Source: Bathymodiolus brooksi
Lineage: Eukaryota; Mollusca; Bivalvia; Mytilida; Modiolidae
Assembly: GCA_963680875.1 (NCBI GenBank)
Contig: OY804588.1
Location: 75,292,829-75,356,828, forward strand
DNA: 64,000 nucleotides
Direction: 5' to 3'
Below, one piece after another: positions 22,473 through 56,500 of this stretch. A program made the position numbers and the translations under genes. How positions within the stretch are numbered: position 1 is the first letter of the stretch; each line of letters starts with the position of its first letter. The notes below the pieces were generated by a model. That model searched no databases and had not been told where the DNA came from. It was given only the letters and a program-made list of their open reading frames with translations.

Positions 22473-22718
22473 TCCCTCAGTTTCCAATGATGGACACGGC
22501 TGAGGAAATTAAAGACCTTATTTCAAAGGGCACGTTCATGGCATATGACAACCGTGTTTACTTAGCTGGTGCCTGCAATGTGGGTAAGTCTACCCTCGCC
22601 AGTATTCTTCTTGATGAGGAGATTCCACAACGTTGGAAATCAACTGATGGATTAATACATTACTTTGGAAGAAATGGGATACATTTGAAAGACAAAACAA
22701 TGATTCCATTGCGAAAAG
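22473..22718 (+). CDS. Exon 1 of model: Roc domain, P-loop and switch I
   Basis: The acceptor is 'TTTGTTTTTCAG' and the donor is 'AAAAG|GTAATA' at 22719. The encoded segment runs from [13 protein letters not shown] through GACNVGKST (22568-22594, Walker A form GxxxxGKST) and STDG (22640-22651, switch I region) to MIPLRKG. A second possible acceptor AG at 22479-22480 would start the exon at 22481 in phase 0. I prefer 22473 because it accepts a phase-1 join like most other introns here and has the better pyrimidine tract. It ends one base into a Gly codon, completed by the next exon. Confidence 0.85.
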
Positions 22719-23523: not shown

Positions 23524-23559
<36 letters not shown>

Positions 23560-26500: not shown

Positions 26501-29500
26501 GAGCTTGACGTTTTATCAATAAAATAGATGTAGGGTACAAAAAGGGTCCCGTCCCATAAATATATATATATACGTCTGAAAACTAAACCAAACAGTGTTA
26601 GAATTAGATTTTAGATTTATAAACGTCTAAAATGTTAGCACAACGATATAAAAAAAAGATGTTAAAATGTAACAAAAATAACTATAAGTCTACAAAAAGA
26701 CTATAATTAAAATTAAATCGACGGATATTTCGCTTGACCGACAAGCTTTATCAGACGCTGATAAATCTTTGTCGGTCAAGCGAAATATTCGTCGATTTAA
26801 TTATAATTATAGTCTTTTTGTAGACTTATAGTTATTTTTGTTACATTTTAGCATCTTTTTTTGATATCGTTGTGCTAACATTTTAGACGTTTATTTATCA
26901 TTTTTGTTTGTTTGCACAGTATCGTTAACACTTGTTTCCGATCCGACATCTCGTAGGTTCATACGTTGGCTACTTTTTCAGACGTTTATATATATATATA
27001 TATATATAGTATACACCGGTGTATATATTATATATATATGGGACGGGACCCTTTTTGTACCCTACATCTATTTTATTGATAAAACGTCACGCTCCTGTGC
27101 TAGGACGCACTGCGTCCAATTTATATTACTACGACACGAACTTGTAACGGCTGTTTAACACATTGACGGTAATTGAGACTAGAATTTAAAGAGAAGTGTA
27201 TTTATTTGCTGAACATTAGAAGTTTATTAAATAAATAATGTCAGAAAACAATGTTAACTAATGAATGCAACAAATTTACTTTGCGCGCAAGTAACTGCAC
27301 TACACAATCCACTAACCTTCATGTTTACAGTAGTTGCCCTACTTTGATAACTAAACGGTGATGTAATTAAGTTACTGATATTTTCCAATTTGATGGCATT
27401 TTGCATATAGCTACACTTAAACAACTAAAATGCTCACAAAATCGCAACATAAATCAGTAACCAGTTTGTGTCAATGTCACCAGCGTTCCTTGTATACTAC
27501 GTCACCGGATGACGACAAATTACAGAAGTCAAAGTCGATAGATGGTTGTCTTTAGTTTTTTTTCCAGAAAACATTATGTCAAGAAACAATTCGAGAATTT
27601 CAGCGGAACAGCCGTTGAATTTCATACATTGGAAACCCAAATTTTCAACACTATCTTTTATGACACCCTTTTGGCCCCCGACAAGCCTGATTCTTTGGCC
27701 AATCTTTGGATCATTGTGATAAAACGACATTTCGTGGTGTATTTTATTAGCAGATGAACATTGTGAGTTTTGTTTACATTTTTGTTCCCGTTGTCAAGGA
27801 ATTATTAATAAACCTAGAGATTTCCGGAAGAAAAAGTAGTCCCGACAGATTATGACCTTTTTCTAGCCATTTACCGATTTGACAACATGCGGGGTAAGAC
27901 ACGAGACATTTTAATCCTCTACAGGATTACATATTTTTCCACCACTGGTTTAGCGGGTTAAAGCGCCGTAATAATGGGAGAAAACATTGGACAGCATTCA
28001 TTAAGACAAGAACAAATATCATTCATAACTGTCAGTAATTATTGAGTATATCATGACTAACTAGTCATATAATGGTAGCAAACATTAGACAGAATTCATT
28101 TGAACAAGAACCAACATCAGTCATAACTCTCAGTAATTATTAAGCTATGGCATGACTAACTAGGCCTATTCTGGTAGAAAACATTAGACAGAACTGATTA
28201 GGACAAGAACCAACATTAGTCATAACTGTCAGTAATGATTGCACTATATCATGATTAACTACACATAGTCTGGTAGAAAACATTAAACAGAACTGACTTG
28301 GACAAGAAATGACATCAGTCATAACTGTCAGTAATTATTGAGTTATATCATGATTAACTAGACATAGTCTGGTAGAAAGCAGTAGACAGAACCGATTATG
28401 ACAAGAACCAGCATCAGTCATAACTGTCAGTAATAAATGAGCTATATCATGACCAAACAGACATATAATGGTAGAAAACATTGGACAGAATTCATTAGGA
28501 CAAGAACCAATATCATTTATAACTGTCAGTAATTATTGAGTATATCATGACTTATTAGACATATACTGGTAGAACACATTAGACAGAACTGATTAGGACA
28601 AGAATCAACATCAGTCATAACTGTCAGTAATAACTGAGCTATAGCATGACTAACAGACATATAATGGTAGAAAACATTAGACATAATTCCTTTGAACAAA
28701 AACTGACATCAATTATAACTGTCAGTAATTATTGAGTTATATCTAGACATATGCTGGTAGAAAAACACTAGAAAGAACTGATTAGGACAAGAACCAACAT
28801 CAGTCATAACTTTCAGTAATAATTTAGCTATATCATGACTTACTAGACATATAATGGTAGAAAACTTTAGACTTAATTCATTTGTACAAGAACTGACATC
28901 AGTCTTAACTGTAACTCTCAGTAATTATTAAGTTATATCATAACTAACTAGAAATACACTGGTAGAAAACATTAGACAGAACTGATTAGGACAAGAACCA
29001 ACATCAGTCATAACTGTCAGTAATTATTAAGCTATATCATGACTAACTAGACATATAATGGTAGAAAACATTAGACAGAACTGATTAGGACAAGAACCGA
29101 CATCGGTCATAACTGTCAGTAATAATTGAGTCATGACTAACTAGACATATAATGGTAGAAATATACCAGGCATGAGTAATTTATAAAAGAAAACCTACAT
29201 GTTATATTTAAGCCATTTACCTGTTATGAATCATTTTGAACGATAAATTGAACTCAAAATATATTGTTAATTTGTGAATTGTCATATATGGTGAAGTGTC
29301 TACCTTCCGGAAACAATATAAATTGCACTACTACATTATCAGGTTTTGATGGTGATGTTTTGTCTAAAGTACTACGTGGCCAGCCAGACATGAAGCAAGA
29401 AAAACATCTTTCCAATTATGGTGAAAGTTTGCCAAAGCGAAGAAAGATAATGAGGCCTCCCCCTACTACCAAAAAAATGGGGACATCTATGAAACATCCA

Positions 29501-32500
29501 GCTGCCAAAAGTAAAGCCATTTTATTTGAGAAAACTGACACAGCACTTGTCAAAGGAGCAAGAAACAAAGACACACATAAAGGACTTTCCAAACCACAAC
29601 TACAGGCCCAGAAGATGTCAAGGCAAAGCTACATTACAATTCACGAGGATATAAAAGAGGAATTGAGAAAAGGAAATTATAAAGTAGATATAGTCCCATC
29701 AGATCTTGTTGATTTTGGAGGACATAAATCGTTTGACATGACACATCAGTTATTTATACAACATAAAGGAGAGTTTATTTTGATGTTTAATGGCAGATAT
29801 AATTTCTGTGATCCTCTACCAGAATACCGGCAAGGAGATGTTACTACAGAATGTAAGTTGGTGTAAATATGTGTTTTGTCTTTTCTGATTTATATACTGA
29901 CCAATAATATAATGTTTGTAGACACATGTTTATGATGTTTGTAATAAGAGTTGTGTTTGGCAACATATATCCCTGTTTCTAGTGGCTAAATCAGAGTTGT
30001 GTTTGTAGACATATATCCCTGTTTCTAGTGTCTGAATCAGAGGTGTGTTTGTCAATATATATCCCTGTTTATAGTGTCGGAATCAGAGGTGTGTTTGGCA
30101 ACATATATCCCTGTTTCTAGTGGCTAAATCAGAGTTGTGTTTGGTGACATATATCCCTATTTCTAGTGTCTGAATCAGAGTTATATTTGGTGACAGATAT
30201 CCCTGTTTCTATTGGCTAAATATAAGAGTTGTGTTTGGCGACATACATGTATATCCCTGTTTCTAGTGTCTGAATCAGAGTTGTGTTTTTGTGACATATA
30301 TTCCTATTTCTAGTGTCTGAATCAGAGTTGTATGTGGTGACATATATCCCTGTTTCTAGTGGCTAAATATAAGAGTTGTGTTTGGCGACATATATCCCTG
30401 TTTCTAGTGGCTAAATCAGAGTTGTATTTGGTGACATATATCCCTGTTTCTAGTGGATAATTCAGAGTTGTGTTTGCAGACACCTGTCCCTGGTTATGAT
30501 GTCTGAATCAGAGTTGTGTTTGCCGACATATATCACTCTTTCTAGTGACTAAATCAGAGTTGTGTTTGGTGACATATATCCCTGTTTCTAGTGGCTAAAT
30601 ATAAGAGTTGTGTTTGGCGACATATATCCCTGTTTCTAGTGGCTAAATCAGAGTTGTATTTGGTGACATATATCCCTGTTTCTAGTGGCTAATTCAGAGT
30701 TGTGTTTGCAGACACCTGTCCCTGGTTATGATGTCTGAATCAGAGTTGTGTTTGCCGACATATATCACTCTTTCTAGTGACTAAATCAGAGTTGTGTTTG
30801 GTGACATATATCCCTGTTTCTAGTGTCTGAATCAGAGGTGTGTTTGGCAATATATATCCCTGTTTATAGTGGCTAAATAAGAGTTGTGTTTGGTGACATA
30901 TATCCCTGTTTCTAGTGTCTGAATCAGAGTTGTGCTTGGTGATATATATCCCTGTTTCTAGTGGCTAAGTAAGAGTTGTGCTTGGTGACATATATCCCTA
31001 TTTTAGTGTCTGAATCAGAGTTGTGTTTGGCGACATATATCACTCTTTCTAGTGACTAAATCAGAGTTGTGTTTGGTGACATATATCCCTGTTTCTAGTG
31101 TCTGAATCAGAGGTGTGTTTGGCAATATATATCCCTGTTTATAGTGGCTAAATAAGAGTTGTGTTTGGTGACATATATCCCTGTTTCTAGTGTCTGAATC
31201 AGAGTTGTGCTTGGTGATATATATCCCTGTTTCTAGTGGCTAAGTAAGAGTTGTGCTTGGTGACATATATCCCTATTTTAGTGTCTGAATCAGAGTTGTG
31301 TTTGGCGACATATATTCCTGTCTCTAGTGTCTGAATCAGAGTTGTGCTTGGCGATATATATCTCTGTTTCTAGTGGCTAAATAAGAGTTGTGCTTGGTGA
31401 CATATATCCTTATTTCTAGTGTCTGAATCAGAGTTGTGCTTGGTGACATATATCCCTGTTTCTAGTGGCTAAATAAGAGTTGTGTTTGGCGATATACATC
31501 TCTGTTTATAGTGGCTAAATAAGAGTTGTGTTTGGTGACATATATCCCTATTTCTAGTGGCTAAATCAGAGTTGTGTTTGGAGACATATATCCCTGTTTC
31601 CAATGACTAAATCAGAGTTGTGCGTGTAGTGTCTGATTCAGAGTTGTTTTTGAGGGCACCTCTCTATTTGTAGTGTCTGATTCAGAGTTGTTTTTGAGGA
31701 CACCTCTCTCTATTTGTAGTGTCTGATTCAGAGTTGTTTTCAGGACACCTCTCTCTATTTGTAGTGTCTGATTCAGAGTAGTGTTTGAGGACACCTCTCT
31801 CTATTTGTTGTGTCTGAATAAGAGAAGTGTTTTTGAGGACACCTCTCTCTATTTGTAGTGTCTGATTCAGAGATGTTTTTGAGGACACCTCTCACTATTT
31901 GTAGTGTCTCATTCAGAGTTGTATTTCAGGGCACCTCTCCATTTTTAGTGTCTGATTCAGAGTTGTTTTTGAGATCACCTCCCTCTATGTGTAGTGTCTG
32001 ATTCAGATATGTTATTGAGGACACCTTTCTATTTGTAGTGTCTGAATACGAGAAGTTTTTTTAGGACACCTCTCTCTATTTGTAGTCTCTGAATAAGAGT
32101 TGTTTTTGAGATCACCTCTCTTTATGTGTAGTGTCTGATTCAGAGATGTTCTTGAGGACACCTCTCTCTATTTATAGTTTCTGATTCAGAGATATTTTTG
32201 AGGACACCTCTCTTTATTTATAGTGTCTGATTCAGAGTTGTTTTAGAGGACACCTCTCTCTAATTGTAGTGTCTGATTCAGAGATATTTTTTGAGGACAC
32301 CTCTCTCTATTTCTTATGTCTGATTCAGAGTTGTTTTTGAGGACACCTCTCTCTATTGGTAGTGTCTGATTCAGAGTTGTTTTTTTATGACACCTCCCTC
32401 TATTTGTAGTGTATGATTCAGAGTTGTTTTTGGGATCACCTCTCTCTATGTAGGTGTCTGATTCAGAGTTGTTTTTGAGGGCACCTCTCTATTTGTAGTG

Positions 32501-35500
32501 TCTGATTCAGAGTTGTTTTTATGACACCTCTCTCTATTTCTAGTGTCTGATTGAGAGTTGTTTTTGAGGACACCTCTCTCTATTTATAGTGTCTGATTCA
32601 GATATGTTCGTGAGGGCACCTCTCTATTTGTAGTGTCTGAATATGAGAAGTTTTTTTAGGACACCTCTCTCTATTTGTAGTCTCTGAATAAGAGTTGTTT
32701 TTGAGATCACCTCTCTTTATATGTAGTGTCTGATTCAGAGATGTTCTTGAGGACACCTCTCTCTATTTGTAGTTTCTGATTCAGATATGTTTTTCAGGAC
32801 ATCTCTCTCTCTATTTGTTGTGTGTCTAATTCATGGTAGTTTTTGAGGACACCTCTCTTTATTTGTTGTGTCTCATTCAGAGATATTTTTGAGGGCATAT
32901 CTCTCTATTTGTAGTGTCTGATTCAGAGATGTTTTTGAGGACACCTCTCTCTATTTATAGTGTCTGAATAATAGATGTTTTTTGAGAACACCTCTCTATT
33001 TGTAGTGTCTGATTCATAGATGTTTTGAAGACACCTCTCACTATTTGTAGTGTCTGAATAAGAGAAATTGTTTGAGGACAACTCTCTCTATTTGTAGTGT
33101 CTGATTCAGAGTTGTTTTTCAGGACACCTCTCTCTCTATTTGTTGTGTCTAATTCAGGGTTGTTTTGGAGGACACCTCTCTCTATTTGTTGTGTCTGATT
33201 CTGAGATGTTTTTGAGAGCATATCTCTCTATTTGTAGTGTCTGATTCAGAGATGTTTTTGAGGACACCTCTCTCTATTTTTAGTGTCTGAATAAGAGAGA
33301 TTTTTTAGGACACCTCTCTCTATTTGTAGTGTCTGATTCAGAGTTGTTTTTGAGGACACCTCTCTCTATTTGTAGTGTCTGATTCAGAGGGTTTATTAGG
33401 ACACCTCTCTCTATTTGTAGAGTTTGATTCAGAGATGTTTTGAGGACACCTCTCTATTTGTAGTGTCTGATTCAGGGTTGTTTTTGAGGACACCTCTCTC
33501 TATTTGTTATGTATAATTCAGGGTTGTTTTTGAGAACACCTCTCTCTATTTGTAGTGTCTGATTCAGATATGTTTTTGAGGACACATCTCTCTATTTATA
33601 GTGTCTGATTCAGATTTGTGTTTGAGAACACCTCTCACTATTTGTAGTGTCTGGTTCAAAGATATTTTTGAGGGCACCTCTCTCTATTTGTAGTGTCTAA
33701 TTCAGTTTTGTTTTTGAGGACACCTCTCTCTATTTGTTGGGTCTGATTCAGAGATGTTTTTGAGGACACCATTCTTTATTTGTTGTATCTAATTCAGGGT
33801 TGTTTTTGAGGACACCTCTCTCTATTTGTAGTGACTGATTCAGAGTTGTTATTAAGGACACCTCTGTCTATTGGTAGTGTGATTCAGAGATGTCTTTGAG
33901 ATCACCTCTCTATTTGTAGTGTCTGATTCAGAGAGATTTTTGAGGACACCTCTCTCTATTTGTAGTGTCTGGTTCAGAGTTGTTTCTGAGGACACTTCTC
34001 TGTCTATTTGTAGTGTCTGATTCAGAGATGTTTTTGAGGACACCTCTCTCTATTTTAGTGTCTGAATAAGAGAGATTTTTTAGGACACCTCTCTCTATTT
34101 GTAGTGTCTGATTCAGAGTTGTTTTTGAGATTACCTCTCTCTATATGTAGTGTCTGATTCAGAGGTTTTATTAGGACACCTCTCTCTATTTGTAGTGTTT
34201 GATTCAGAGATGTTTTGAGGACACCTCTCTCTATTTGTAGTGTCTGATTCAGAGAGATTTTTGAGGACACCTCTCTCTATTTGTAGTGTCTAATTCAGTT
34301 TTGTTTTTGAGGACACCTCTCTCTATTTGTTGGGTCTGATTCAGAGATGTTTTTGAGGACACCATTCTTTATTTGTTGTATCTAATTCAGGGTTGTTTTT
34401 GAGGACACCTCTCTCTATTTGTAGTGACTGATTCAGAGTTGTTATTAAGGACACCTCTGTCTATTGGTAGTGTGATTCAGAGATGTTTTTGAGATCACCT
34501 CTCTATTTGTAGTGTCTGATTCAAAGAGATTTTTGAGGACACCTCTCTCTATTTGTAGTGTCTGGTTCAGAGTTGTTTCTGAGGACACTTCTCTGTCTAT
34601 TTGTAGTGTCTGATTCAGAGATGTTTTTGAGGACACATCTCTCTATTTTAGTGTCTGAATAAGAGAGATTTTTTAGGACACCTCTCTCTATTTGTAGTGT
34701 CTGATTCAGAGTTGTTTTTGAGATTACCTCTCTCTATATGTAGTGTCTGATTCAGAGGTTTTATTAGGACACCTCTCTCTATTTGTAGTGTTTGATTCAG
34801 AGATGTTTTGAGGACACCTCTCTATTTGTAGTGTCTGATTCAGGGTTGGTTTTGAGGACACCTCTCTCTATTTGTTATGTATAATTCAGGGTTGTTTTTG
34901 AGGACACCTCTCTCTATTTGTAGTGTCTGATTCAGATATGTTTTTGAGGACACATCTCTCTATTTATAGTGTCTGATTCAGGTTTGTGCTTGAGGACACC
35001 TCTCTCTATTTGTAGTGTCTGGTTCAATTGTTTTTGAGGACACCTCTCTGTATTCGTAGTGTCTGACTCAGAGTTGTTTTTGAGGAAACCTCTCTATTTG
35101 TTGTGTCTGATTCAGAGTTGTTTTTGATGACACCTCTATTTTTTGTGTCTAATTCAGAGTTGTTTTTGAGATCACCTCACTCTATTTGTAATGTCTGATT
35201 CAGGTTTGTTTTTGAGGGCACCTCTTTCTATTCATAGTGTCTGATTCAGAGTTGTTTATGAGGACACCTCTCTCTATTTGTAGTGTCTGATTCAGTTGTT
35301 CTTGAGGACACCTCTCTGTATTCGTAGTGTCTGATTCAGAGTTGTTTTTGAGGACACCTCTCTCTATTTGTTGTGTCTAATTCAGAGTTGCTTTTAATGA
35401 CGCCTCTCTCTATTTGTAGTGTGTGATTCAGAGATGTTTTTCAGGACACCTCTCTCTCTATTTGTTGTGTCTGATTCAGAGATGTTTTTGAGGGCATATC

Positions 35501-38500
35501 TCTCAATTTGTAGGGTCTGATTCAGAGATGTTTTTGAGGACACCTCTCTCTATTTGTAGTGTCTGATTGAGAGTTGTTTTTGAGGACACCTCTCTCTATG
35601 TGTAGTGTCTGAACCAGAGATGTTCTTGAGGACACCTCTCTCTATTTGTAGTGTCTGAATAAGAGTTGTTTTTGAGATCACCTCTCTCTATTTGTTGTTT
35701 CTGATTCATGGTTGTTTTTAAGAAGAAATGTCCTTATTTGTATTCTCTGATTCAGCGTTGTTTTTGAGGACACCTCTCTCTATTTGTTTTGTCTGATTCA
35801 GAGTTATTTTTGGGGACACCTCTCTCTATTTGTAGGTCTGATTTAGAGTTGCTTTTGAGTACACCTGTCTCTATTTGTTGTGTCTGATTCAGAGATGTTT
35901 ATGAGGGCATATCTCTCAATTTGTAGGGTCTGATTCAGAGATGTTTTTGAGGACACCTCTCTCTATTTGTAGTGTCTGAATAAGGGAGGTTTTTTTAGGA
36001 CACCTCTCTCTATTTGTAGTGTCTGATTCAGTTGTTCTTCAGGACACCTCTCTGTATTCGTAGTGTCTGATTCAGAGTGGGTTTTGAGGACACCTCTCTC
36101 TATTTGTTGTGTCTGATTCAGAGTTGTTTTTGATGACACCTCTCTCTATTTGTAGTGTGTGATTCAGAGATTGTTTCAGGACACCTCTCTCTCTATATGT
36201 TGTGTCTTATTCAGGGTAGTTTTTGGGGACACCTCTCTCTATTTGTAGTGTCTGAATAAGAGAAGTGTTTTGAGGACAACTCTCTCTATTTGTAGTGTCT
36301 GATTCAGAGTTGTATTTCAGGGCACCTCTCTATTTCTAGTGTCTGATTCAGAGTTGTTTTTGAGGACACTTCTCTCTATTTGTTTTGTCTGATTCAGAGT
36401 TATTTTTGAGGACACCTCTCTCTATGTGTAGGGTCTGATTCAGTTGTTTTTGAGGACACCTCTCTCTATTTGTAGTGGCTGATTCAGAGTTGTTTTTGAG
36501 ATCACCTCCCTCTATGTGTAGTGTCTGATTCAGAGTTGTTCTTGAGGACACCTCTCTATTTCTAGTATCTGATTCAGCGTTGTTTTTTAGGACACCTCTC
36601 TCTATTTGTTTTGTCTGATTCAGAATTATTTTGGGGACACCTCTCTTTATTTGTAGGGTCTGATTCAGAGTTGTTTTTGAGGACACCTCTCTCTATTTGT
36701 AGTGTCTGGTTCAATTGTTTTTGAGGACACCTCTCTGTATTCGTAGTGTCTGATTCAGAGTTGTTTTTGATGAAACCTCTCTATTTGTTGTCTGATTCAG
36801 AGTTGTTTTTGATGACACCTCTATTTTTTGTGTCTAATTCAGAGTTGTTTTTGAGATCACCTCACTCTATTTGTAGTGTCTGATTCAGGTTTGTTTTTGA
36901 GGGCACCTCTCTCCATTTGTAGTGCTTGATTCAGAGTTGTTTTTGAGGACACCTCTCTCTATTTGTAGTGTCTGATTAAGAGATGTTTTTGAGGACACCT
37001 CTCACTATTTGTAGTGTCTGAATAAGGGATGTTTTTGAGGACACCTCTCTCTATTTGTAGTGTCTAATTCAGAGTTGTTTTTGAGATCACCTCTCTCTAT
37101 TTGTAGTGTCTGATTCAGAGTTGTATTTCAGGGCACCTCTCTATTTCTAGTATCTGATTCAGCGTTGTTTTTGAGGACACCTCTCTCTATTTGTTTTGTC
37201 TGATTCAGAATTATTTTGGGGACACCTCTCTCTATTTGTAGGGTCTGATTCAGAGTTGTTTTTGAGGACACCTCTCTGTATTCGTAGTGTCTGATTCAGA
37301 GTTGTTTTTGAGGAAACCTCTCTCTATTTGTTGTGTCTGATTCAGAGTTGTTTTTGATGACACCTCTATTTTTTGTGTCTAATTCAGAGTTGTTTTTGAG
37401 ATTACCTCTTTCTATTCATAGTGTCTGATTCAGAGTTATTTATGGGGACACCTCTCTCTATTCGTAGTGTCTGATTCAGAGTTGTTTTCGAGGACACCTC
37501 TTTCTATTTGTTGTGTCTGATTCAGAGTTGCTTTTAATGACACCTCTCTCTATGTGTAGTGTGTGATTCAGAGATGTTTTTCAGGACACCTCTCTCTCTA
37601 TTTGTTGTGTCTAATTCAGGGTAGTATTTAAGGACACCTCTCTATTTGTTGTGTCTGATTCAGAGATGTTTTTGAGGGCATATCTCTCAATTTGTAGGGT
37701 CTGATTCAGAGATGTTTTTGAGGACACCTCTCTCTATTTGTAGTGTCTGATTCAGAGTTGTTTTTGAGGACACCTCTCTCTATGTGCATTGTCTGAACCA
37801 GAGATGTTCTTGAGGACACCTCTCTCTATTTGTAGTGTCTGAATAAGAGTTGTTTTTGAGATCACCTCTCTCTATTTGTTGTTTCTGATTCATGGTTGTT
37901 TTTAAGAAGAAATGTCCTTATTTGTATTCTCTGATTCAGAGTTGTTTTTGAGGACACCTCTCTCTATTTGTAGTGTCTAATTCAGGGTTGTTTTTGAGGA
38001 CACCTCTCTCTATTTGTAGTGTCTGATTCAGTTGTTTTTGAGGACACCTCTCTGTATTCGTAGTGTCTAATTCAGAGTTGTTTTTGAGGACACCTCTCTC
38101 TATTTGTTGTGTCTGATTCAGAGTTGTTTTTGATGACACCTCTATTTGTTGTGTCTAATTCAGAGTTGTTTTTGAGATCACCTCACTCTATTTGTAATGT
38201 CTGATTCAGGTTTGTTTTTGAGGGCTTCTCTTTCTATTTGTAGTGTCTGATTCAGATATGTTTTGAGGGCACCTCTCTCTATTTGTAATGCCTGATTCAG
38301 GGTTGTTTTTGAGGACACCTCTCTCTATTTGTAGTGTCTGTTTAAGAGATGTTTTTGAGGACACCTCTCACTATTAGTAGTGTCTGAATAAGAGAATTTT
38401 TTGAGGACACCTCTCTCTATTTGTAGTGTCTAATTCGGGGTTGTTTTTGAGGACACCTCTCTCTATTTGTAGTGTCTAATTCAGGGTTGTTTTTGAGGAC

Positions 38501-41500
38501 ACCTCTCTCTATTTGTAGTGTCTGATTCAGTTGTTCTTGAGGACACCTCTCTGTATTCGTAGTGTCTGATTCAGAGTTGTTTTTGAGGACACCTCTCTCT
38601 ATTTGTTGTGTCTGAATCAGTGTTGTTTTTGATGACACCTCTCTCTATTTGTAGTGTGTGATTCAGAGATGTTTTTCAGGACACCTCTCTCTCTATTTGT
38701 TGTGTCTAATTCAGGGTAGTTTTTGGGGACACCTCTCTCTATTTGTTGTGTCTGATTCAGAGATGTTTTTGAGGGCACATCTCTCTATTTGTAGTGTCTG
38801 ATTGAGAGTTGTTTTTGAGGACACCTCTCTCTATGTGTAGTGTCTGAACCAGAGATGTTCTTGAGAACACCTCTCTCTATTTGTAGTGTCTGAATAAGAG
38901 TTGTTTTTGAGATCACCTCTCTTTATTTGTTGTTTCTGATTCATGGTTGTTTTTCAGAAGAAATGTCCTTATTTGTATTCTCTGAATCAGAGTTGTTTTT
39001 GTAGACACCAATTTTTATTTGTAGTGTCTGAATAAGAGTTGTTTTTGAGATCACCTCTCTTTATTTGTAGTGTCTGATTCAGAGTTGTTTTTCAGGAGAT
39101 TTGTCGGAATCAGGTTTCTTAGACACCTCTCCTTCTTTGTATTGTCTGATTCGTACAGGCAACACGAATTCTAACACCATTTCTTATGAAATGGATAGTT
39201 ATTACTACAGAAGACAAACAGAAACAACTCATCTTTATATGTCATTGTTACCCAACATAGTTACACCTGTCTTTACGATCATCTTTAAACTAATTGTGTG
39301 GCAAGGATGACAAATCAGGGTTTTTCTGTAATTATTCTAGTTTCCTCTATAAATAAAACTGAATGTTATAATATAGCAAATGTTGTCAATTGTATTTTTT
39401 TTTTTATTTATGTATGCATGTATAACACCCTTCACTTTATCACACTTTGAATTATAATATAATCATACTTTTACTTTCAGCTATATTGAAGTATTAGATG
39501 AGCTCTATCCTGAATTATAATATAATCAAACTTTTACTTTCAGCTATATTGAAGTATTAGATGAGCTCTATCCTGAATTATAATATAATCATACTTTTAC
39601 TTTCAGCTATATTGAAGTATTAGATGAGTTCTCTCCTGAATTATAATATAATCATACTTTTACTTTCAGCTATATTGAAGCATTAGATCAGCTCTCTCCT
39701 GAATTATAATATAATCATACTTTTACTTTCAGCTATATTGAAGTATTAGATGAGCTCTATCCTGAATTATGATATAATCAAACTTTTACTTTCAGCTATA
39801 TTGAAGTATTAGATGAGCTATATCCTGAATTATAATATAATCAAACTTTTACTTTCAGCTATATTGAAGCATTAGATGAGCTCTATCCTGAATTATAATA
39901 TAATCAAACTTTTACTTTCAGCTATATTGAAGCATTATATGAGCTGTCTCCTGAATTATAATATAATCATACTTTTACTTTCAGCTATATTGAAGTATTA
40001 GATGAGCTCTCTCCTGAATTATAATATAATCAAACTTTTACTTTCAGCTATATTGAAGCATTAGATGAGCTCTATCCTGAATTATAATATAATCAAACTT
40101 TTACTTTCAGCTATATTGAAGCATTAGATGAGCTCTATCCTGAATTATAATATAATCAAACTTTTACTTTCAGCTATATTGAAGTATTAGATGAGCTCTA
40201 TCCTGAATTATAATATAATCATACTTTTACTTTCAGCTATATTGAAGTATTAGATGAGCTCTATCCTGAATTATAATATAATCAAACTTTTACTTTCAGC
40301 TATATTGAAGCATTAGATCAGCTCTATCCTGAATTATAATATAATCAAACTTTTACTTTCAGCTATATTGAAGTATTAGATGAGTTCTCTCCTGAATTAT
40401 AATATAATCATACTTTTACTTTCAGCTATATTGAAGTATTAGATGAGTTCTCTCCTGAATTATAATATAATCAAACTTTTACTTTCAGCTATATTGAAGT
40501 ATTAGATGAGCTCTATCCTGAATTATAATATAATCAAACTTTTACTTTCAGCTATATTGAAGTATTAGATGAGCTCTATCCTGAATTATAATATAATCAT
40601 ACTTTTACTTTCAGCTATATTGAAGTATTAGATGAGCTCTATCCTGAATTATAATATAATCAAACTTTTACTTTCAGCTATATTGAAGCATTAGATCAGC
40701 TCTATCCTGAATTATAATATAATCAAACTTTTACTTTCAGCTATATTGAAGCATTAGATGAGCTCTATCCTGAATTATAATATAATCAAACTTTTACTTT
40801 CAGCTATATTGAAGTATTAGATGAGCTCTATCCTGAATTATAATATAATCATACTTTTACTTTCAGCTATATTGAAGTATTAGATGAGCTCTATCCTGAA
40901 TTATAATATAATCAAACTTTTACTTTCAGCTATATTGAAGCATTAGATCAGCTCTATCCTGAATTATAATATAATCAAACTTTTACTTTCAGCTATATTG
41001 AAGTATTAGATGAGTTCTCTCCTGAATTATAATATAATCATACTTTTACTTTCAGCTATATTGAAGTATTAGATGAGTTCTCTCCTGAATTATAATATAA
41101 TCAAACTTTTACTTTCAGCTATATTGAAGTATTAGATGAGCTCTCTCCTGAATTATAATATAATCATACTTTTACTTTCAGCTAGATTGAAGCATTAGAT
41201 GAGATCTCTCCTAAATTATAATATAATCATACTTTTACTTTCAGCTATATTGAAGTATTAGATGAGCTCTCTCCTGAATTATAATATAATCATACTTTTA
41301 CTTTCAGCTAGATTGAAGTATTAGATGAGTTCTCTCCTGAATTATAATATAATCATACTTTTACTTTCAGCTATATTGAAGTATTAGATGAGCTCTATCC
41401 TGAATTATAATATAATCAAACTTTTACTTTCAGCTATATTGAAGTATTAGATGAGCTCTCTCCTGAATTATAATATAATCATACTTTTACTTTCAGCTAT

Positions 41501-44500
41501 ATTGAAGCATTAGATGAGCTCTCTCCTGAATTATAATATAATCATACTTTTACTTTCAGCTATATTGAAGTATTAGATGAGCTCTATCCTGAATTATAAT
41601 ATAATCAAACTTTTACTTTCAGCTATATTGAAGTATTAGATGAGCTCTATCCTGAATTATAATATAATCAAACTTTTACTTTCAGCTATATTGAAGTATT
41701 AGATGAGCTCTATCCTGAATTATAATATAATCATACTTTTACTTTCAGCTATATTGAAGCATTAGATCAGCTCTATCCTGAATTATAATAAAATCAAACT
41801 TTTACTTTCAGCTATATTGAAGCATTAGAAGAGCTCTCTCCTGAATTATAATATGATCAAACCTTTACTTTCAGCTATATTGAAGCATTAGATGAGTTCT
41901 CTCCTGAATTATAATATAATCATACTTTTACTTTCAGCTATATTGAGCCATTAGAAGAGCTCTCTCCTGAATTATAATATGATCAAACTTTTACTTTCAG
42001 CTATTTTGAAGCATTAGATGAGTTCTATCCTGAATTATAATATAATCAAACTTTTATTTTCAGCTATATTGAAGCATTATATGAGCTCTCTCCTGAATTA
42101 TAATATAATCATACTTTTACTTTCAACTATGTTGAAGTATTAGATGAGCTCTATCCTGAATTATAATATAATCAAACTTTTACTTTCCGCTAGATTGAAG
42201 CATTAGATGAGCTCTCTCCTGAATTATAATATAATCATACTTTTACTTTCAACTATGTTGAAGTATTAGATGAGCTCTATCCTGAATTATAATATAATCA
42301 AACTTTTACTTTCAGCTAGATTGAAGCATTATATGAGCTCTCTCCTGAATTAAAACATAATCAAACTTTTACTTTCAGCTATATTGAAGCATTAGATGAG
42401 CTCTCTCCTGAATTATAATATAATCATGCTTTTACTTTCAGCTATATTGAAGCATTAGATGAGCTCTATTCTGAATTATAATATAATCAAACTTTTACTT
42501 TCAGCTATATTGAAGCATTAGATGAGTTCTCTCCTGAATTATAATATAATCAAACTTTTACTTTCAGCTATATTGAAGCATTAGATGAGCTCTCTCCTGA
42601 ATTATAATATAATCATACTTTTACTTTCAACTATGTTGAAGTATTAGATGAGCTCTATCCTGAATTATAATATAATCAAACTTTTACTTTCAGCTAGATT
42701 GAAGCATTAGATGAGCTCTCTCCTGAATTATAACATAATCAAACTTTTACTTTCAGCTATATTGAAGCATTAGATGAGCTCTCTCCTGAATTATAATATA
42801 ATCATGCTTTTACTTTCAGCTATATTGAAGCATTAGATGAGCTCTATTCTGAATTATAATATAATCAAACTTTTACTTTCAGCTATATTGAAGCATTAGA
42901 TGAGTTCTCTCCTGAATTATAATATAATCAAACTTTTACTTTCAGCTATATTGAAGCATTAGATGAACTTTATCCTGAATTATAATATAATCATACTTTT
43001 ATTTTCAGCTATATTGAAGCATTGGGCGAGCTCTATCCTTTCGTATTGGGCAGATGATGACGACATTCTGCCAATAATACTGTTTGCAGCAACACACAGT
43101 GATTTCTATTCTCAGGTTTGATCATTTGTTTATATTATTCTCATCTTGTTAGCTGGCTTTGCGTAAAGGTCAATGGGATACTGTTGTCATTTATCATATT
43201 ATTTTATTAAATATGTAGTACAGAATATTAGTTACAATTTTGTTTAAGGTCAAATTTACCAGTTTTTCAAATAATTCGGAAAAACTAAATAAATGTACTT
43301 TATATTCGTATGTTGTGACCGAAAATATTCCGTCACTGACCGTTTCTCAAAATATCAGACAACGATTATCAAAGTGAGTGATTCAACAATTATTAAAGTG
43401 ACTGATTCCGTCATTACAAGAGTGAGCTATTCCACCATTATCAAAATGATCGATTCCACCATTAACTGAGTGAGTGATTCAATCATTATGAAAGTGACCA
43501 ATTCAACCATTTTCAAAGTGACCGATTCCACCATGATCAAAGTGAGCATTTCCAAGAACCATGAAGGTTCTTATTTATATTGATAGAAACATTTTTACCA
43601 TTTTAATGATAAAATCAAAAAGTAGGGGAATGGTGGGATGGATTCCATATAGGCAGCTTATATTTCATACTGAGTATAAATATACAGTTTTGTACTGTCC
43701 TTTCAACAGTGAATATTGCCAAATTGTATTCAGGGACCATTACAGATAGGCCATGTTCCATTTCAGACTTTTATCATTTTTTTCTGTACTGGAGTAAGCC
43801 GATATCCATTGATTCTTAATATATTTTTTTCATTTCCAGAATGATCGCATGGACAGGAGAAAAAGGTTGATCAAAGACCTCAAAGAAATGTTTCAAAATC
43901 ATGAACAACATAAGCGTATAATATATGATGACATCTTCTTTATAAATGGAAAAGATGAAAATGACCCTGAAATCAATCGACTAAAGACCAAGCTAGTTGA
44001 GGTAGCATTTAGACAAAATTCATGGGGTAAAAGAATGCCTATGGCTTGGGTCCCACTGGATCTACAATTGTCTGAGATGAGATCACACAATACGACCCTA
44101 ATTTCAAAAGAAGATCTAGAAACCCTGAATAGAAATAATGAGGACTTTGCACTTACTGATACACAAATTGAGCATTTCTTAAAAGCTCAACATTCCTTAG
44201 GCAAAATTTTATATTTTGACCAACATGGACTTGAGAAATTCATAATTGTACAGCCACTATCACTTGTAAATATCTTAAGATCTTTCATCACAGATGAACT
44301 TTTCTGGCCCGAAGAGGAAAGCCTCCGAGATATTCTACTTGCAATGATTAATACAGGAGAAATCGCCAAAAAAGATCTACTCAAGATTTGGTCACAGAAG
44401 GAATTTGACCAACACATGCCTAACAATGACCTGAAAGAGTTTATAATACAAGTCCTCGTTCACCTAGACATTCTTGTAGAACCAAAACGCTATAGCCAAG

Positions 44501-47500
44501 AACAGAAGTCTATTGTCCATTCATACTTTGTACCATGCATAGTAAAACGTAAACTACCAGTCACTGACATTTATTATAAATCAGCGGAAGATAAGATGAT
44601 ATGCTTATCTTACAAACTTTTAAAATCGCCCATACCTGCTGCTTTGTCATTTAAGTTAATTGGTGCTGCAATGAATGTTTGGCCTTTAAAGGAAACACCA
44701 GAAGGTGTTTGTTTGTATCACCAAGCTGCAATACTTTGCATTGATCGAGGAAATGAGTTGCATATTTCGGTGAAAGATAATAAGATCATTATCTACTTAA
44801 TAAATAAAGACCGTAAGTGTTTCATATCACCAAACATTGCATCCACTGTACAAGAATGCTTAACATTGACATTAAAAAACGTACTTGAGTTCTATCACAA
44901 AAGCTTCGGAAAATCACTCTCTATATCCGAGGTATCAGAATTGTTTGAAATACAAATCGGAGAATGGTGCGACACAGGGGCGTGTTATATATCAGTTCCA
45001 GAAGAAAAAACAATGCTGGAATGGACATGTAAGAATAAGAAGACACACAAAACAAAGTTTCCTCTTTTCTGGATATTTGACAATGTAAGTTTTGATGTTC
45101 ATTAATCTTAATTTTTTGTTGTTGTTTTATTTTTTATTTTTGTATGTTCTTATTCAATACTTCAACCGAACATAAATCATTTATAAAGAAAACTCAAAAG
45201 CCTCGTCACAACAGCACAGTAAGCTATTTTTTTTCAATAATAATAAGAATGTCCAAAAACACTGCATGCCATCGACCGCTGCACAATATAAATGACAGTC
45301 TGCAAAAGAATAATATATTGTTAAAAATAATTAAACCTCACTATCCATACTAATGTTGAATATTTTGTAAATAATAAATGGTTGGCTTAGGCTTATGGTG
45401 TTTAACACCACTTTCAACAATATTTCAATAATATCGTGGTGGTTAATTTTATTGGTGAGGAAACCGGGGTAAACCACCAACCTGTCGCAGGTCACTGACA
45501 AACTTTATCACATAATGTTATATCGTGTACACCATGCCAGGAACGGTATGTAAACAATAGATACTAAATGATTAAAAAACTATAAACAAATGAGTGTTGA
45601 TCAAGTACTGTGATTGATTAATGGCGAAGCTTGAATGACAAAGTTGAATCCTTCAATTTAACAATTTAACTTTTAAATATGAAAATAATAGTGCAAATTA
45701 TTACCTTAACCAGGGGCGTAGATGAGGCTTAATAGTGTGCACGCCATAATTCTTGAGAGGGGGGATTTGAGATTTTGTTTTTGACGAGACCCAAAATGCT
45801 GCGATCTGGGGCCATTTTAGGGTTTCATTTAACATAGAATCAAGCACAATGTTAATGACTTTGATAGACAAGAATTTCTTAAAATTGTCCAAAATCTGCC
45901 CTTCGTGTCTTAGCAGATACGAACACCTCCAATGCTTTGTACATGTCCACTTCAAAATCTCGATGAATATGCACCAATCCAAGCTGGAAGATAGCCTGTC
46001 ATTCTTCATGGTCGACCTAACATAATTTTTCAAACACCTCAGTACACAAAATGACCTTTCAACAGTAGCGCTTGCTACTGGCATGGTTAACAAAACACAT
46101 ACTATTGTATCTATAGAAGGATAGAGAACTGGATTAAGTGTTGTTGGCAAATCATTACGTTTAGTAATGACCCAGTGGGTTCGACATCTGGCTACTTCTC
46201 TCCTGAAATCCTCAAATGACAAATACATGTCAGCCTGATATGCCTCGTATATTGTAGCAACATGATCATCAGTTAATTTGCCTACAGCACGGAACAGTAG
46301 ATACTGTGCATGGAAGCGGTTTTCCGATTTAAGGAGGCATGTTTCAAGCTCGTAATCAAATTGTCCAAAAATGGATAGTACAAAGAAATTCGCCAATACT
46401 GTTTTGGCGTTTCCGCGGGGTGATTGGCTCTGGTAATCTGTCTACCACCTCGCCTGGGCATACTACCGGTATCACATATATCAAAAGATTTGGCTAAGCT
46501 AAGTGCAGACTGATGCAACTCATCCTAAGCCGATTCAGCTCTTAGCATTTCAATCACGGTCTTGGATTATTTTATTGCTTCAAGAATGTGGTAATCTGTA
46601 TCTTAAAGGAACATATTTTACATAGCACTGTTTGTGCTATGTAAAATATGTTCCGCTATTACCTAAGCTATGATAAACTGAAACCGCATGATGGATGCAA
46701 GAAACTGCCCGGCTTTGTCATCGACTTGGTTTTGTAAGCGTTCTAACGAATGGACCATAACTGGATATTGACGTCTTAAAGGTATACAATGCGTACACTC
46801 GACTTGTCCATCACATAATTACCATACAAAGGTTACTTAAGTACGTTTTAATAGCGATATATTAATTATACCAATTTAATTAGACTGTTAAAAGTAACAA
46901 TTCATTTTTTTGAATTATTTTTAACCTGCCGATGTGCACGCCATGGCGTGACAGCGTATATGCAACTACGCCTCTGTTAACAGGTGACAATGAAGACTAA
47001 TAGGACATCGAAGTGTAATACATAGTTTAACATAGAACCCTAAGAAAAAAAGAAAAAAAACTCACATTTTTCTTCTATAAAACCAGTAAACATATGTTGA
47101 TATTATATCTGACCATGTTTGTGATTGTATTAAATATGTTGTCATTATATTCTACATTATAATTTTAGACACGAGACACGTGTGATAAAAGATGTACAGG
47201 TAATGTTATACTATTATTTTAGACATAAGCCATGTGTGTGGTTCAAAATGTTTAGGTGTAATTTTATACTATTATTTTAGACATAAGACACGTGAGATGA
47301 AAAATATTTAGGTGTAATTTTATACTATTATTTTAGACATAAGACACGTGAGATGAAAAATATTTAGGTGTAATTTTATACTATTATTTTTGACATAAGC
47401 CATGTGGGTGGTGGAAAATGTTAAGGTGTAATTTTATACTATTATTTTAGACATAAGCCATGTGTGTGGTGGAAAATATTTAGGTGTAGTTTTATACTAT

Positions 47501-50500
47501 TATTTTAGACATAAAACACGTGAGGTAAAAAATATTTAGGTGTAATTTTATACTATTATTTTAGACATAAGACACGTGAGATGAAAAATGTTTAGGTGTA
47601 ATTTTATACTATTATTTTAGACATAAGACACATGAGGTAAAAAATGCTTAGGTGTAATTTTATACTATTATTTTAGACATAAGCCATGTGTGTGGTGGAA
47701 AATATTTAGGAACGTTTTATACTATTATTTTAGACATAAGACACGTGAGATGAAAAATATTTAGGTGTAATTTTATACTATTGTTTTAGACATAAGCCAT
47801 GTGTGTGGTGGAAAATATTTAGGAACGTTTTATACTATTATTTTAGACATAAGACACGTGAGATGAAAAATATTTAGGTGTAATTTTATACTATTGTTTT
47901 AGACATAAGCCATGTGGTTGGTGGAAAATATTTAGGTGTAATTTTATACTATTATTTTAGACATAAGCCATGTGTGTGGTGGAAAATGCTTAGGAACTTT
48001 TATGCTATATTTATAGATACAAGACATGTGTGATGATACATGTGCAAGTAAATGTATGCTTTAATTTTAGACAATACTCAGTTTGTATATTGTCTTGGGT
48101 ACTCTACGTTCACTTTAGCCAACAGTACAAAGAAACAATAAAGAAAGCATGGAGAAAACCAGATATTTGACAGTCATTGTGTACTGTAATGACCTCTTAT
48201 AAAATATGTATTAGCTCCCGTTTTATATTTGATATATATATTATCTGCCCTTTTATATCTGATATATCTCTTAACTGCAGGACTTGACAACAAGGATTTG
48301 GGATTGTGTCCTACTGACCAACATCTTGTTAGACTGGCTGGTCTTGTACCATTTGATAAATTTTATGAGCTTGTCATCCATTTAGGATTGTCCAAAATCT
48401 CATGGAAGAATATTTTAGAACAGTATCGAGGATATGATCAAACAATCGTGAACTTTGTTGCCCTTTGTAAATGGAGGCAGCAAAAGCACAAAGAGATGGA
48501 GACGATATCATTTAAAGATTTGTCTGATGCGTTAACTGCAATCAATCATCACCGTCATGTTCTATGTCAGGTGGGTAATAACTAAAGTCATATCAGACTA
48601 GTTCTATGTCAGGTAGGTAATAACTAATGTCATATCTGACTAGTTCTATGTCAGGTAGGTAATAACTAAAGCCATATCTGACTAGTTCTATGTCAGGTAG
48701 GTAATAACTAAAGCCATATCTGACTGGTTCTATGTCAGGTAGGTAATAAATAATGATGTGTGTTTAGTGGAAAAGCAACAAATACAAATTTAATAATTTG
48801 GTTTGACCCGACCGTGGCTTGAACCAACTATCTACCGCATTTCAGGCGAGCAAGTTATCCATCGCAACACAATCGCGGTTCATTATGTTCACATCCAGCT
48901 GATTGCAAGGTGTGCTTGACTTGTACCTAAGGTATAAGCAATGTGGAATAGTTTAACACCCAGCTGATTGTGAGGTGTGCCTCACATGTACGTTAAGTGT
49001 CATCAACGATATATATGTTAGCGTCCAACTTATTATGTGGTGTCCTCGATCTGTACCTCAGGTGTCATCAATAAGTTAATGGTGCATGTCTAGCTGAATG
49101 TGTGGTGTGCTCGACTGATGTGAGATTCACTGGCTCGATACCTCTGACAGTCTGTTCCGTGGTTATCACCTGCACAGTTGTCTGTGTTTCGGCACTGGCA
49201 TAGATGAAGGGTGTCCTCCGGCTCCCTCAGGACTAGATGATCTTAGCCCATGTTGGTTATCCAGTCTAGGGGTTTTGGTTTTGTTGCTACCAAAGACTTG
49301 TTTGGCTTCTTAATCCTTCGACCTGATGAATTTTATTCCAGAAACTCATCGTGTGCATTAAATTTGATATCTATTCTTTTAGCACACCTGGCCGTCGTAC
49401 GTCGTAAACTTTTTCAAAGATCTTCTCCTCTGAAACTATTAGACCAATTGGAACCAAAGTTGGTCTGGATCATCACTAGGATGTCTAGTTTCAAAATTGT
49501 GCCCGAGGATGCCGTGCACCAATCAACATGGTCGCTGTTACTAAAAATAGAACATCGTAAAATTGCCGTTTTTGGGTAGTTACTCAAAAACCGTTAATAA
49601 TATCAGAAATCTGACAGGGTAAAAATGATCAGCACAGCAAGATCTAACTACCCTGCATTTTTGAAGAAATTCTAAATACCCATCATGGAGGTATTGCCCT
49701 TTTTTAGCTCATCTGACCTTTAGGCCATGTGAGCTATTGTCATCATTTTTCGTCCGTCGTCTGTCCTCCATCGTCCGTCGTCTGTCGTCTGTCGTCCGTC
49801 GTCCGTCTGTCAACATTTCAAATTTTAATCTTCTCCTCAGAAACCACTGGGCCAATTACAACCAAACTTTGGTGGAATGGTCCTTGGATGGCCCCCTTCC
49901 AAAATTGTGTCAGGTGATCCAGACTTCCCACCAAGATGGTCGCCAAGCTAAAAATAGAAAAAGGGGGGATGAAATTTTATTTGACCATTGCTACTTTAGT
50001 ATAAGTCAACATGAGCTCAAATTTTAACTGCAGCTACATGGCAAGGAGTAGTTTAACATTTATTCCGGGTTTTTCTGTGAAATTTTTCCTTTCAGCCGAT
50101 TTATACCGATTATGCAAATTAGGCATATTTTGATAAAAGATCACATTTAAATCTTCTCCTCTGAAACCGCTGAACCAAATTAAACCAAACCTGGCAGGGA
50201 TGGTCCCTGGGTGGGTCCCTTTCAAAATTGTGTCCGACAGCCCCGCCCTCTATCCAAGATGGCCGCCATTAATAAAGATAGAATGTTTTTCAAATGGCCA
50301 AAACTGCTTTATTTTAAGCCAGAATGTGCCCAAATTTGAACTGTATAAGCATAATGATGAGCTTTTTAACATATATTATGGGATTTTTTATGAATTTTGA
50401 ACTTTTGCCGATTTTGACCGATTATGCAAATTAGAAAAAAGGGGGGGGGTGAAATTAAACAAAATCTTCTCCTCTGAAACTACTGAGCCAATCTCAACCA

Positions 50501-53500: not shown

Positions 53501-56500
53501 CTTAGCTTAACATAGGACTCTATGGGAAATTCACATAAAAATCTTCTCCTCAGAAACCACTTGGCCAATTGCAACCAAACTGTGTTGGCATAGTCCTTGG
53601 ATGGGCCCCTTCCAAAATTGTGTCCGGTGATCCCGACTTCCAACCAAGATGGCCGCCAAGTTAAAAATAGTAAAAAGCAGGGATGAAATTTGAAAAAAAA
53701 TCTTCTCCTCTGAAACTACTGAGCCAATCTCAACCAAACTTTGCTGAAATGATCCTTGGGTGGTCCCCTTCCAAAATTATGTCTGGCATTTCAGACATCC
53801 AACCAAGATGGCCACCACAGCCGAACTTAATGTAACATAGGACCCTATGGGAAAATCCCATAAAAATCTTCTTGTCTGAAACCATTTGCTCAATAAGAAC
53901 AAAATGTTGATGAAATAGTCATTGGATGGTTCTCTTTCAAAAATGTTTCTGGAGGTTCTGCCCTTCGACCAAGGTGGCCCCCACAGCCGAACTTAGCTTA
54001 ACATAGGACCCTATGGGAAATTCACATAAAAATCTTCTTGTCTGGAACCAGTTGCTCAATTGGAACCAAACTTTGATAAAATAGTCATTGGATGGTCCTC
54101 TTCCAACATTGTGTCTGGTGGTCCCGCCCTCTGACCAAGATGGCTGCACAGCTGTACTTTGTTTAACATAGAACCTTATGGGAAATTCACATAAAAAACA
54201 TCTTGTCTGGAACCAGTAGCTCAATTAGAACCAAACTTTGATGGAATAGTCATTGGATTGTCCTCTTCCAAAATTGTTTCCGGTAGTCACGATCTCCCAC
54301 CAAGAAGGCCGCCACAGTGCAGTTGCGTTGTTATTGAAAGCAGCTTTGATCCAGGTGAGCGATTACAGGCTCCTGGGAGCCTCTGGTTTCATCAAATTTT
54401 CAAAATTTTAATATTTTCTGTCTTATATTTCGATAACTATAAGAGATAGAGGCAAACATATTCAGCATGTCAAGATCAAACTACCCTGCAATTTTGAAGT
54501 AAATCCGAGTACCAATTTTGGAGTTATTGCCCTTTTTTCATCAAATTTTCCAAATGTTAATACTTTTCGTCCTTTATTTCAAAAACTATAAGAGATACAT
54601 GTTAAGTTTAAACTGCAAACATGCTCAGCATGTTAAGATCTACATACCCTGCAATTTTGAAGTAAATCCTATAACCCATGTTGGAGTTATTGCCCTTTTT
54701 TCATCAAATGTTCTAAATTTTAATACTTTCATCGTATATCTCAAAAACTATTAGAGATAGAGGGAAAGTTTAAACTGCACAAATGTTCAGCATGTCAAGA
54801 TCTACAACAAAGTTTTCACAGTTGAAAATGTCCGACTACTGTGTGAAGAGTTATTCCTCTTGAAATGCATTTATTTTTTTTTTGACTTTCACTGCTTTTG
54901 GTTACTCAATAATCAAAGGGAAGCAACTCTATTACAAAATGTGAAGTAGCAAAAGCTAAATTTTGAGAATCATTGACATTTATGTTTTTTACAGCAATGT
55001 AAAGGGGGAAGCCATGCCCAAATTTTTTTGGAGAGGGGGGTCTGCAATGACGAGGGCTACATTTGTTATTTTTTGACCGGCGTTATCATGTTTTATTGAC
55101 TGATGTTGTTATTATATCCAGGTGAGCTATTCAGGCTCCTGGGAGCCTCTAGTTTTAATTCCAGGTAGTTATCAATAGTGCATGCTTTCCTATGGGAACT
55201 CTGACTGCTTCTGGCATAAATGCTGATCACCATGATATATTTGTGGGGAAATTTGGCTCAAATGTTCTCTCTTTCTGACAAGAATGACGTGGTTGGCTGG
55301 TTTGTTTATGGTGTCTAACACCACTTTCAACAATATATCAGTTATATTGTGGAAGTAATTTTCATAGATGGAGGAAACCGGAGTACCCGGGAAAAAAACC
55401 CGTCAAAAGTCACTGACAAACTTTTATCACATAATGTTGTATCGAGTACACAGCGCTATGAATGGGATTCGAAATCGCAACTTTAGTGGTGATATTCACT
55501 GATTGTACAGATAGTTGTAAATCCAACTAACATGCAATCACGACGTACATTGACTTATGTTATTTACTTAAAATTAATATTTTGTTGTCTGGTCTGTCAC
55601 ATTACCTTTCCGGTGTATTATATATATATATATATATATATATAATTATCTTGTCTAGCAACTTATTTGTGTATTACAGGTTTTCTGGGAAAACGTCAAG
55701 GTTACAGGTATGTAAAATCTTTAATATACAAAAGCAAAATAGGTAGAATAGGTATGGTAAGTTTTATAAATACAATAATTATGGATGCTGTATAAAATAT
55801 TTGTACATAAACTCACATCCTTATAATTTCTGTTTAGCTCAGATGACCGAAGGGCAATGGAGCTTTAAGTATTGATTTTTGTTCTTTATCCATAACTTGC
55901 TATGACCCCTTAAGCTCCAAAATGCAACATGTGGTGCAATAAGGAATATCGATACCAGTCATATAGTCCTAATTCCTTGTGGGTTAGCATATCTCATGTC
56001 ATTACTGACACCTGTCATGTTGTCCCAATTCCTGCAGTGTTAGTATATCCTATGTCATTAATAATACCAATCATGTCCTAATTCTTTAAGTGTTAATCGG
56101 TTGGGCATTCAGTATTATTGCTAAGTAAACCCCAGCCCTTCTCTATTATTACCTGACAAACCAGATTGACAAGGCATCACCTGTCCTGCTCCTTGAGAAG
56201 TGCTTAGCAATTCCGTGGATTCAGCTCCCGAAATCATCCACAGTGCCCAGTTTTGGAATTACAATGCATGATGTTGCTTCAATCAAATTATCCATACAGA
56301 GGCCCAACAATCAGTCAATATAGCTGAAATTCTGTTCTCATGACAAGTAGTCTATTATGAAAGAAGAGTTTAAAGATACCAAAGGGGCAATTAGAAACTG
56401 TATATAGAAGAAGAACAGACAACATAATGGCCAAAAGAAAAAGTGCAAAAGGACAAACAACAATCAACAAAACATACATATAAAACTAAAGATCGAGTCA

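Follow-up and report, generated by a model that had tools for sequence, protein, structure and literature searches.

How does a cell pick the useful copy of a splice site out of many near-identical ones? The question is raised by a 64,000-nucleotide stretch of the genome of the mussel Bathymodiolus brooksi (GenBank assembly GCA_963680875.1, contig OY804588.1, positions 75,292,829 to 75,356,828 of the forward strand; hereafter the window). Here, an intron of a predicted Roco GTPase gene ends in a long tandem array, each unit of which repeats the end of that intron and the start of the following exon. Tandem Repeats Finder (TRF) places the array at 39448-43039, with a period of 63, 57.0 copies, 94% matches and 0% indels. 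With the register set from the G of the AG at 43008, the array is cut into 57 head-to-tail units of 63 bp (39448-43038), a size and an arrangement that correspond to those of minisatellites (units of about 10-100 bp, head to tail). The first AG then falls at 39480, and the difference of 3528 equals 56 x 63. Each unit consists of 33 bp of intron end (tgaattataatataatcaaacttttactttcag) followed by 30 bp of exon start, unit 57 being the true intron end and exon start. An initial annotation of the locus had proposed that a 3' splice site and its exon start were amplified 56 times upstream of their own exon; the register and the 3528 bp agree with this.

The 56 upstream units are decoys, and their content can be described unit by unit. 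Their near-identity to the real acceptor, as initially annotated, is borne out, but the same annotation counted 56 near-identical acceptors, and the AG is intact in only 52; CAA is found in units 43, 45 and 51 and CCG in unit 44. Thus, 52 decoys carry a copy of the real host splice site with a near-identical tract, and four do not. Over positions -12 to +3, 50 of the 56 differ from the real site in a single base, a C instead of T at -7; one matches it in full, one has a second change in the tract and four are those without AG. In the frame of the exon, 53 decoys have TAG where the exon has TGG, and their frames end after 5 residues. The TAG had been announced for every decoy; in units 8, 42 and 46 the codon is TAT, and the stop comes after 26, 26 and 12 residues, respectively. 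The broader claim, that all decoys kill the reading frame, holds for 56 of 56, with a premature stop within 5-26 residues. The sequence GATGATGACGAC of the true exon occurs in none of the decoys. Use of the next decoy would lengthen the exon from 107 to 170 nt, and use of the one further upstream would lengthen it to 233 nt. Dual-specific splicing was considered and rejected, since no AGGT is found at the unit border, where C follows in 57 of 57 units (CAG/CTAT and variants; the slash marks the border).

The array belongs to a gene for which eight plus-strand exons were found, with a joined frame open over 914 residues (the 5' part lies outside the model). The COR and Death domains exceed their Pfam cut-offs (PF16095, 36.6 bits vs 35.3; PF00531, 25 bits vs 22.6), and the Roc domain falls below that of its family (PF08477, 19.5 bits vs 27). 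P-loop, DFGG and THSD motifs were recognised by eye in the joined protein, and the exon at 22473-22718 holds what we take to be the Roc P-loop. As judged from its predicted protein, the host gene is a putative Roco (Roc-COR) GTPase with a Death domain. Joining 29852 to 43009 preserves the frame and gives ...ATHSD; only the last of the 57 acceptors yields an open joined frame. A first search returned 112 homologs, the named species being Mytilus; most are 30-50% identical, and closer ones are up to 87% identical across roughly half of the query. In an alignment of 33 of these 112, the three residues on either side of the join are free of gaps, and a gap of one residue occurs in eight sequences, four or five residues ahead of the join. 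Moreover, a spliced-looking relative on a 1710-bp contig (P0119) has its exons in the order of the host gene. The homologous proteins and P0119 thus support the initially annotated join of exon 29343-29852 to the acceptor at 43009. A second search gave 70 proteins, 31 of which are single-exon relatives (75-96% identity) of exon 29343-29852. Close relatives of the gene, whether paralogs or alleles, are thus numerous. No relatives were found in the searched viral contigs or genome contigs.

Two further arrays of splice sites occur in this gene. The first, at 47158-48047, consists of 16 copies of a 31-nt microexon and its acceptor and donor. Fifteen of them have the AG; among these, the 13 inner copies start with ACA TAA and are thus closed by their second codon, the two edge copies being open. 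A second spliced-looking relative (P0002, on a 1631-bp contig) reads TQDTCDERCSG at this position, which matches the first copy better than the last (8 vs 5 of 11 residues), and this makes the first copy the probable real microexon. Joining both edge copies, or none at all, breaks the frame (stop after 717 or 736 residues). The second array, at 48559-48753, repeats an exon end and its donor in units of 42 bp (TRF). The five donor copies span 48570-48738; the four extra ones score 10.14, slightly above the true donor (9.8), and the copy matched by homologs is the exon-proximal one. As far as homology can tell, the supported copy sits at the array edge in all three splice-site arrays of the gene. 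P0119, available as protein only, carries DEGETTECKTKDEGETAES at an exon end, which looks like a duplicated donor of which the downstream copy was used. Three of the 16 arrays of period 20 or more lie at splice borders (P 0.021 with 14 borders; 0.012-0.037 with 16 borders and scaled positions). The test was devised after the arrays had been seen, and the enrichment of minisatellites at splice borders is only suggestive. A wider proposal would be that, in this gene family, splice junctions are recurrent seeds of minisatellites, that arrays growing there lengthen introns but leave one good site at an edge, and that the number of poison copies sets a heritable and fast-changing level of unproductive splicing. 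It draws on the presence of acceptor, microexon and donor arrays in one gene and on the footprint of a duplicated donor in a spliced-looking relative, and we regard it as a rather doubtful conjecture.

Can the strength of the sites designate the true acceptor? Acceptors and donors were scored with simple weight matrices of approximate values. Such scoring had been suggested in the initial annotation; the real acceptor obtains 5.26, and 20 of the 56 decoys score at least as high. Acceptor-like sites also abound elsewhere. Two 46-bp minisatellites precede the array in the same intron: AGs that reach or exceed the real acceptor number 100 of 556 in the second (7.5 kb; maximum 9.72) and 0 of 113 in the first (29943-31622). 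Other introns also contain strong acceptor-like sites (18 of 360 AGs in 22719-29342; 23 of 307 in 48571-55679), and the cell must therefore ignore many sites anyway. Per kb, the AGs within one bit of the real site amount to 6.5 in the acceptor array, 20.9 and 10.7 in the second and first 46-bp arrays, and 2.8-5.5 in five other introns. On these densities, the idea that the decoys form an exceptional load of false acceptors was rejected. The acceptor array contains 42 GTs, the best of which scores -0.23, as compared with 3.5 to 9.8 for the seven inferred donors of the gene. The decoys can thus hardly define an exon of their own, and their interpretation as microexons was discarded.

The variation among units bears on how the array arose. 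There are 32 distinct unit types among the 57. Units 11-16 are identical to units 21-26, a six-unit block repeated 630 bp away, and this block length was not reached in 5000 permutations. Homogenisation, as suggested by the initial annotation, or alternatively block duplication, is thereby backed. A regular higher-order repeat was not retained: among 20 lags, the lowest permutation fractions are 0.009 (lags 6 and 17) and 0.0135 (lag 14), uncorrected for the 20 tests, and the block test is clearer. The mean pairwise difference is 4.65 in the 18 units nearest the exon vs 2.32 in the first 19. At least 29 substitution events occurred in the array, and the probability of zero indels ranges from 0.24 to 0.003 at assumed indel:substitution ratios of 0.05 to 0.2; the absence of indels is unusual, though not extreme. 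The codon after TGG is GCG (A) in the exon and mostly ATG in the decoys, and the residue after W in relatives with the motif is V or I in 87 of 88 and A in one. The founder likely had GTG, altered independently in decoys and exon, in which case the exon was not homogenised with the array. Variable sites make up 4 of 12 in the acceptor core vs 21 of 51 in the rest of the unit (P 0.75), and selection on the core is not supported. AG losses are confined to the exon side (0/38 in units 1-38 vs 4/18 in units 39-56; Fisher P 0.008). They are not read as selection, because three of the four have an identical CAA sequence, and the units on that side are generally more diverged.

The reading that we favour, and consider probable, is that of a splice-junction minisatellite whose presence is tolerated thanks to exon definition, by which the exon-proximal site is preferred; some leaky unproductive splicing probably occurs. 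It can be proposed that a tandem duplication spanning the intron-exon border created a second copy of 63 bp, and that unequal exchange or slippage, partly in multi-unit blocks, then extended the array to 56 copies upstream of the original. A change of the exon TGG to TAG in the founder copy would have made its descendants poison acceptors. The acceptor would be chosen largely across the exon, since only the last copy is both 107 nt from the donor and joined to the rest of the exon. The introns flanking exon 43009-43115 are 13,156 and 724 nt long, and such long introns, together with a choice made largely across the exon, may account for a gene that is still able to work. For human alternative sites, it is reported that sites closest across the exon are preferred when the flanking introns are long, and those closest across the intron when they are short (PMC9225289). 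According to the same source, the bias toward upstream acceptors is significantly reduced when both introns exceed 250 nt, the quoted constructs having tested donors. The decoys would thus mostly be bypassed, and with them the approximately 100 sites resembling acceptors in the adjacent 46-bp array. Some leakage into unproductive mRNA is probable for the few nearest decoys; this mRNA would be cleared by nonsense-mediated decay, and the array would need no selected role. The donor array, in which homologs point to the exon-proximal copy, agrees with this reading, and so does human ABCA7, where the canonical donor is the first GT of its array and out-of-frame retention of a unit is observed (PMC5954066). 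Discrimination by a nearby donor or by exon sequence was one of two options offered by the initial annotation. It is the one preferred here, with the qualification that the published rule of the closest site across the exon is weaker for acceptors than for donors (PMC9225289).

Several other observations also weigh against this reading. When competing acceptors lie at least 20 nt from each other, the upstream one is preferred overall (PMC9225289). The donor of the true exon, CAG/gtttga, is weak (3.47), and the acceptor of the probable microexon scores only 0.1 with the approximate matrices. The microexon array provides no test of an exon-proximal rule, since each copy has its own donor, and P0119 seemingly used the downstream copy of a duplicated donor. 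Finally, in the human ABCA7 gene, the retention of one repeat unit is independent of array length (PMC5954066), an argument against leakage that scales with copy number.

The other option of the initial annotation was competition that tunes the output of the GTPase, the decoys being kept because the number of poison acceptors sets the amount of full-length protein. The premature stops in all 56 decoys, and likewise in the inner microexon copies and after the decoy donors, would fit such a role, as would the lower expression that accompanies array length in ABCA7 (PMC5954066). However, the acceptor core varies as much as the remainder of the unit, four decoys have lost their AG and the TAG appears inherited from one founder. 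Moreover, the 31 close relatives (75-96% over one exon) make a fine dosage of one copy less compelling, and the length-independent retention in ABCA7 does not suit it either. Such tuning thus appears unlikely. We deem similarly unlikely, at the other extreme, a purely neutral minisatellite that has no measurable effect on splicing, in a locus which may even be a decaying copy of the family. The richness of the window in minisatellites (43 overlapping TRF rows) and the large family suggested by the 31 relatives argue for it. Against it, decay is not visible in eight exons that are open and joinable over 914 residues, and the arrays of ABCA7 and IFI6 do alter transcripts (PMC5954066, PMC4526556).

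The upstream decoys might also win, by order of transcription or by distance across the intron, in which case most transcripts would be unproductive and little protein would be made. The overall preference of competing acceptors for the upstream site (PMC9225289) and the weakness of the true exon's donor are consistent with this. It is nevertheless quite improbable, because the bias is smaller for exons with long flanking introns (PMC9225289), the 46-bp array located further upstream would then beat the decoys, and the coding frame is intact. That the assembly gives a wrong copy number or order is very improbable. Tandem arrays are, as generally known, often misassembled; but the 32 unit types with their non-random repeated blocks suggest long reads spanning the 3.6 kb, and an open reading frame identical to the COR exon on an 840,973-bp contig (P0174) would suggest the same.

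Table 1. Features of the host gene and of its arrays in the window (positions are those of the window; a slash marks a splice border)
Feature	Positions	Strand	Basis or remark
Roc P-loop exon (GACNVGKST)	22473..22718	+	Open frame, AG and GT ends; tblastn with homologs up to 71% identity
Roc G3 exon (DFGGH), donor AAT/gtaagt, partner of the acceptor array	29343..29852	+	Frame, splice ends, homologs
Two 46-bp minisatellites in the intron of the acceptor array	29943..39097	+	TRF; second (31625-39097) rich in acceptor-like CTCTATTTGTAG/TGT
56 decoy units of 63 bp	39448..42975	+	TRF and fixed-register cutting
Unit 57, true acceptor (AG at 43007-43008) and exon start	42976..43038	+	Sole unit of 57 with an open frame into the exon
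Roc G4 exon, weak donor CAG/gtttga	43009..43115	+	Homolog alignment, spliced-looking relative P0119, donor score
COR exon	43840..45084	+	Pfam COR-A PF16095, E 1.5e-9
Microexon, first copy, 31 nt	47169..47199	+	8/11 residues as in P0002; keeps frame
14 inner microexon copies	47223..47991	+	13 with AG and TAA stop; one near 47393 has TG for AG
Last microexon copy, coding-capable	48017..48047	+	5/11 residues as in P0002; open if used alone
Exon after microexon, true donor CAG/gtgggt	48281..48570	+	Homologs; no Pfam match of its own
Decoy donors of the 42-bp array	after 48612, 48654, 48696, 48738	+	Each extension stops after 813 residues of the joined frame
28-nt exon (VFWENVKVT)	55680..55707	+	Template search with P0002 and family peptides
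Last coding exon, Death domain	56653..56942	+	Pfam PF00531; homologs

Among the other features of this minisatellite-rich window, an array of 59-bp units occupies its left edge (21-20117, 20 kb, about 344 copies, 5% indels). A fragment of a hAT transposase dimerisation domain (Pfam PF05699) lies on the minus strand of an intron, at 45701-46441.

The locus amounts to a natural competition experiment, in which 52 intact, near-identical acceptors are placed at fixed 63-nt steps upstream of the true site. The donor and microexon arrays of the same transcript extend this experiment. RNA from one animal could show, with no need for a construct, how the use of the sites depends on their distance from the donor. 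Should copy number differ between animals, the array would also offer a direct test of whether the number of poison sites sets the output of the gene.

Splice sites offered to one transcript by every unit of a repeat are familiar from large viral repeats, for example in the latency transcripts of Epstein-Barr virus; unlike those of the mussel array, the units there are of kilobase size and contain whole exons that are productively joined. An acceptor-side minisatellite of the kind described here was not found in literature searches on repeats and splice sites, which covered titles and abstract openings of mainly open-access papers. In the classical experiments of Reed and Maniatis on duplicated splice sites, as told in PMC9225289, near-equal sites compete as well and distance decides in part, but few sites were compared, whereas the mussel gene offers 57 in a natural series. 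In human paralogs, members of duplicated gene families, splicing is likewise changed by internal tandem repeats at exon-intron boundaries (PMC2812944); the outcome there is new introns arising from the repeats, without a long decoy array. In polyubiquitin genes (PMC10809524), tandem repeats at splice boundaries also change splicing, through dual-specific AG/GT sites, whereas the mussel units have CAG/CT and could serve as acceptors only. The minisatellite of human IFI6 (6-16) provides multiple splice donors, of which two downstream units are said to be used (Turri 1995, via PMC4526556; reference also in PMC2572611). There, as in the mussel, repeat units provide alternative splice sites of one exon, with the difference that those of the mussel are acceptors opening onto frames that stop. 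In the human ABCA7 gene (PMC5954066), a variable number tandem repeat (VNTR) of intron 18, with 25-bp units in about 12-427 copies, starts with the exon 18 donor as its first two bases. In both genes, the units of the minisatellite repeat a splice site. In that study, the retention of one unit is out of frame, and array length is linked to skipping of exon 19. The two cases differ in that the human array is on the donor side, downstream of its exon, and the mussel array on the acceptor side, upstream, with 30 bp of exon per unit. In addition, the mussel array has a stop in nearly every copy and two more splice-site arrays in its gene. Variation and transcripts were measured for ABCA7; the mussel array is described here from its sequence. 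By this analogy, the ABCA7 VNTR is the closest known case, and the mussel array may be regarded as its acceptor-side counterpart, with exon sequence in each unit.

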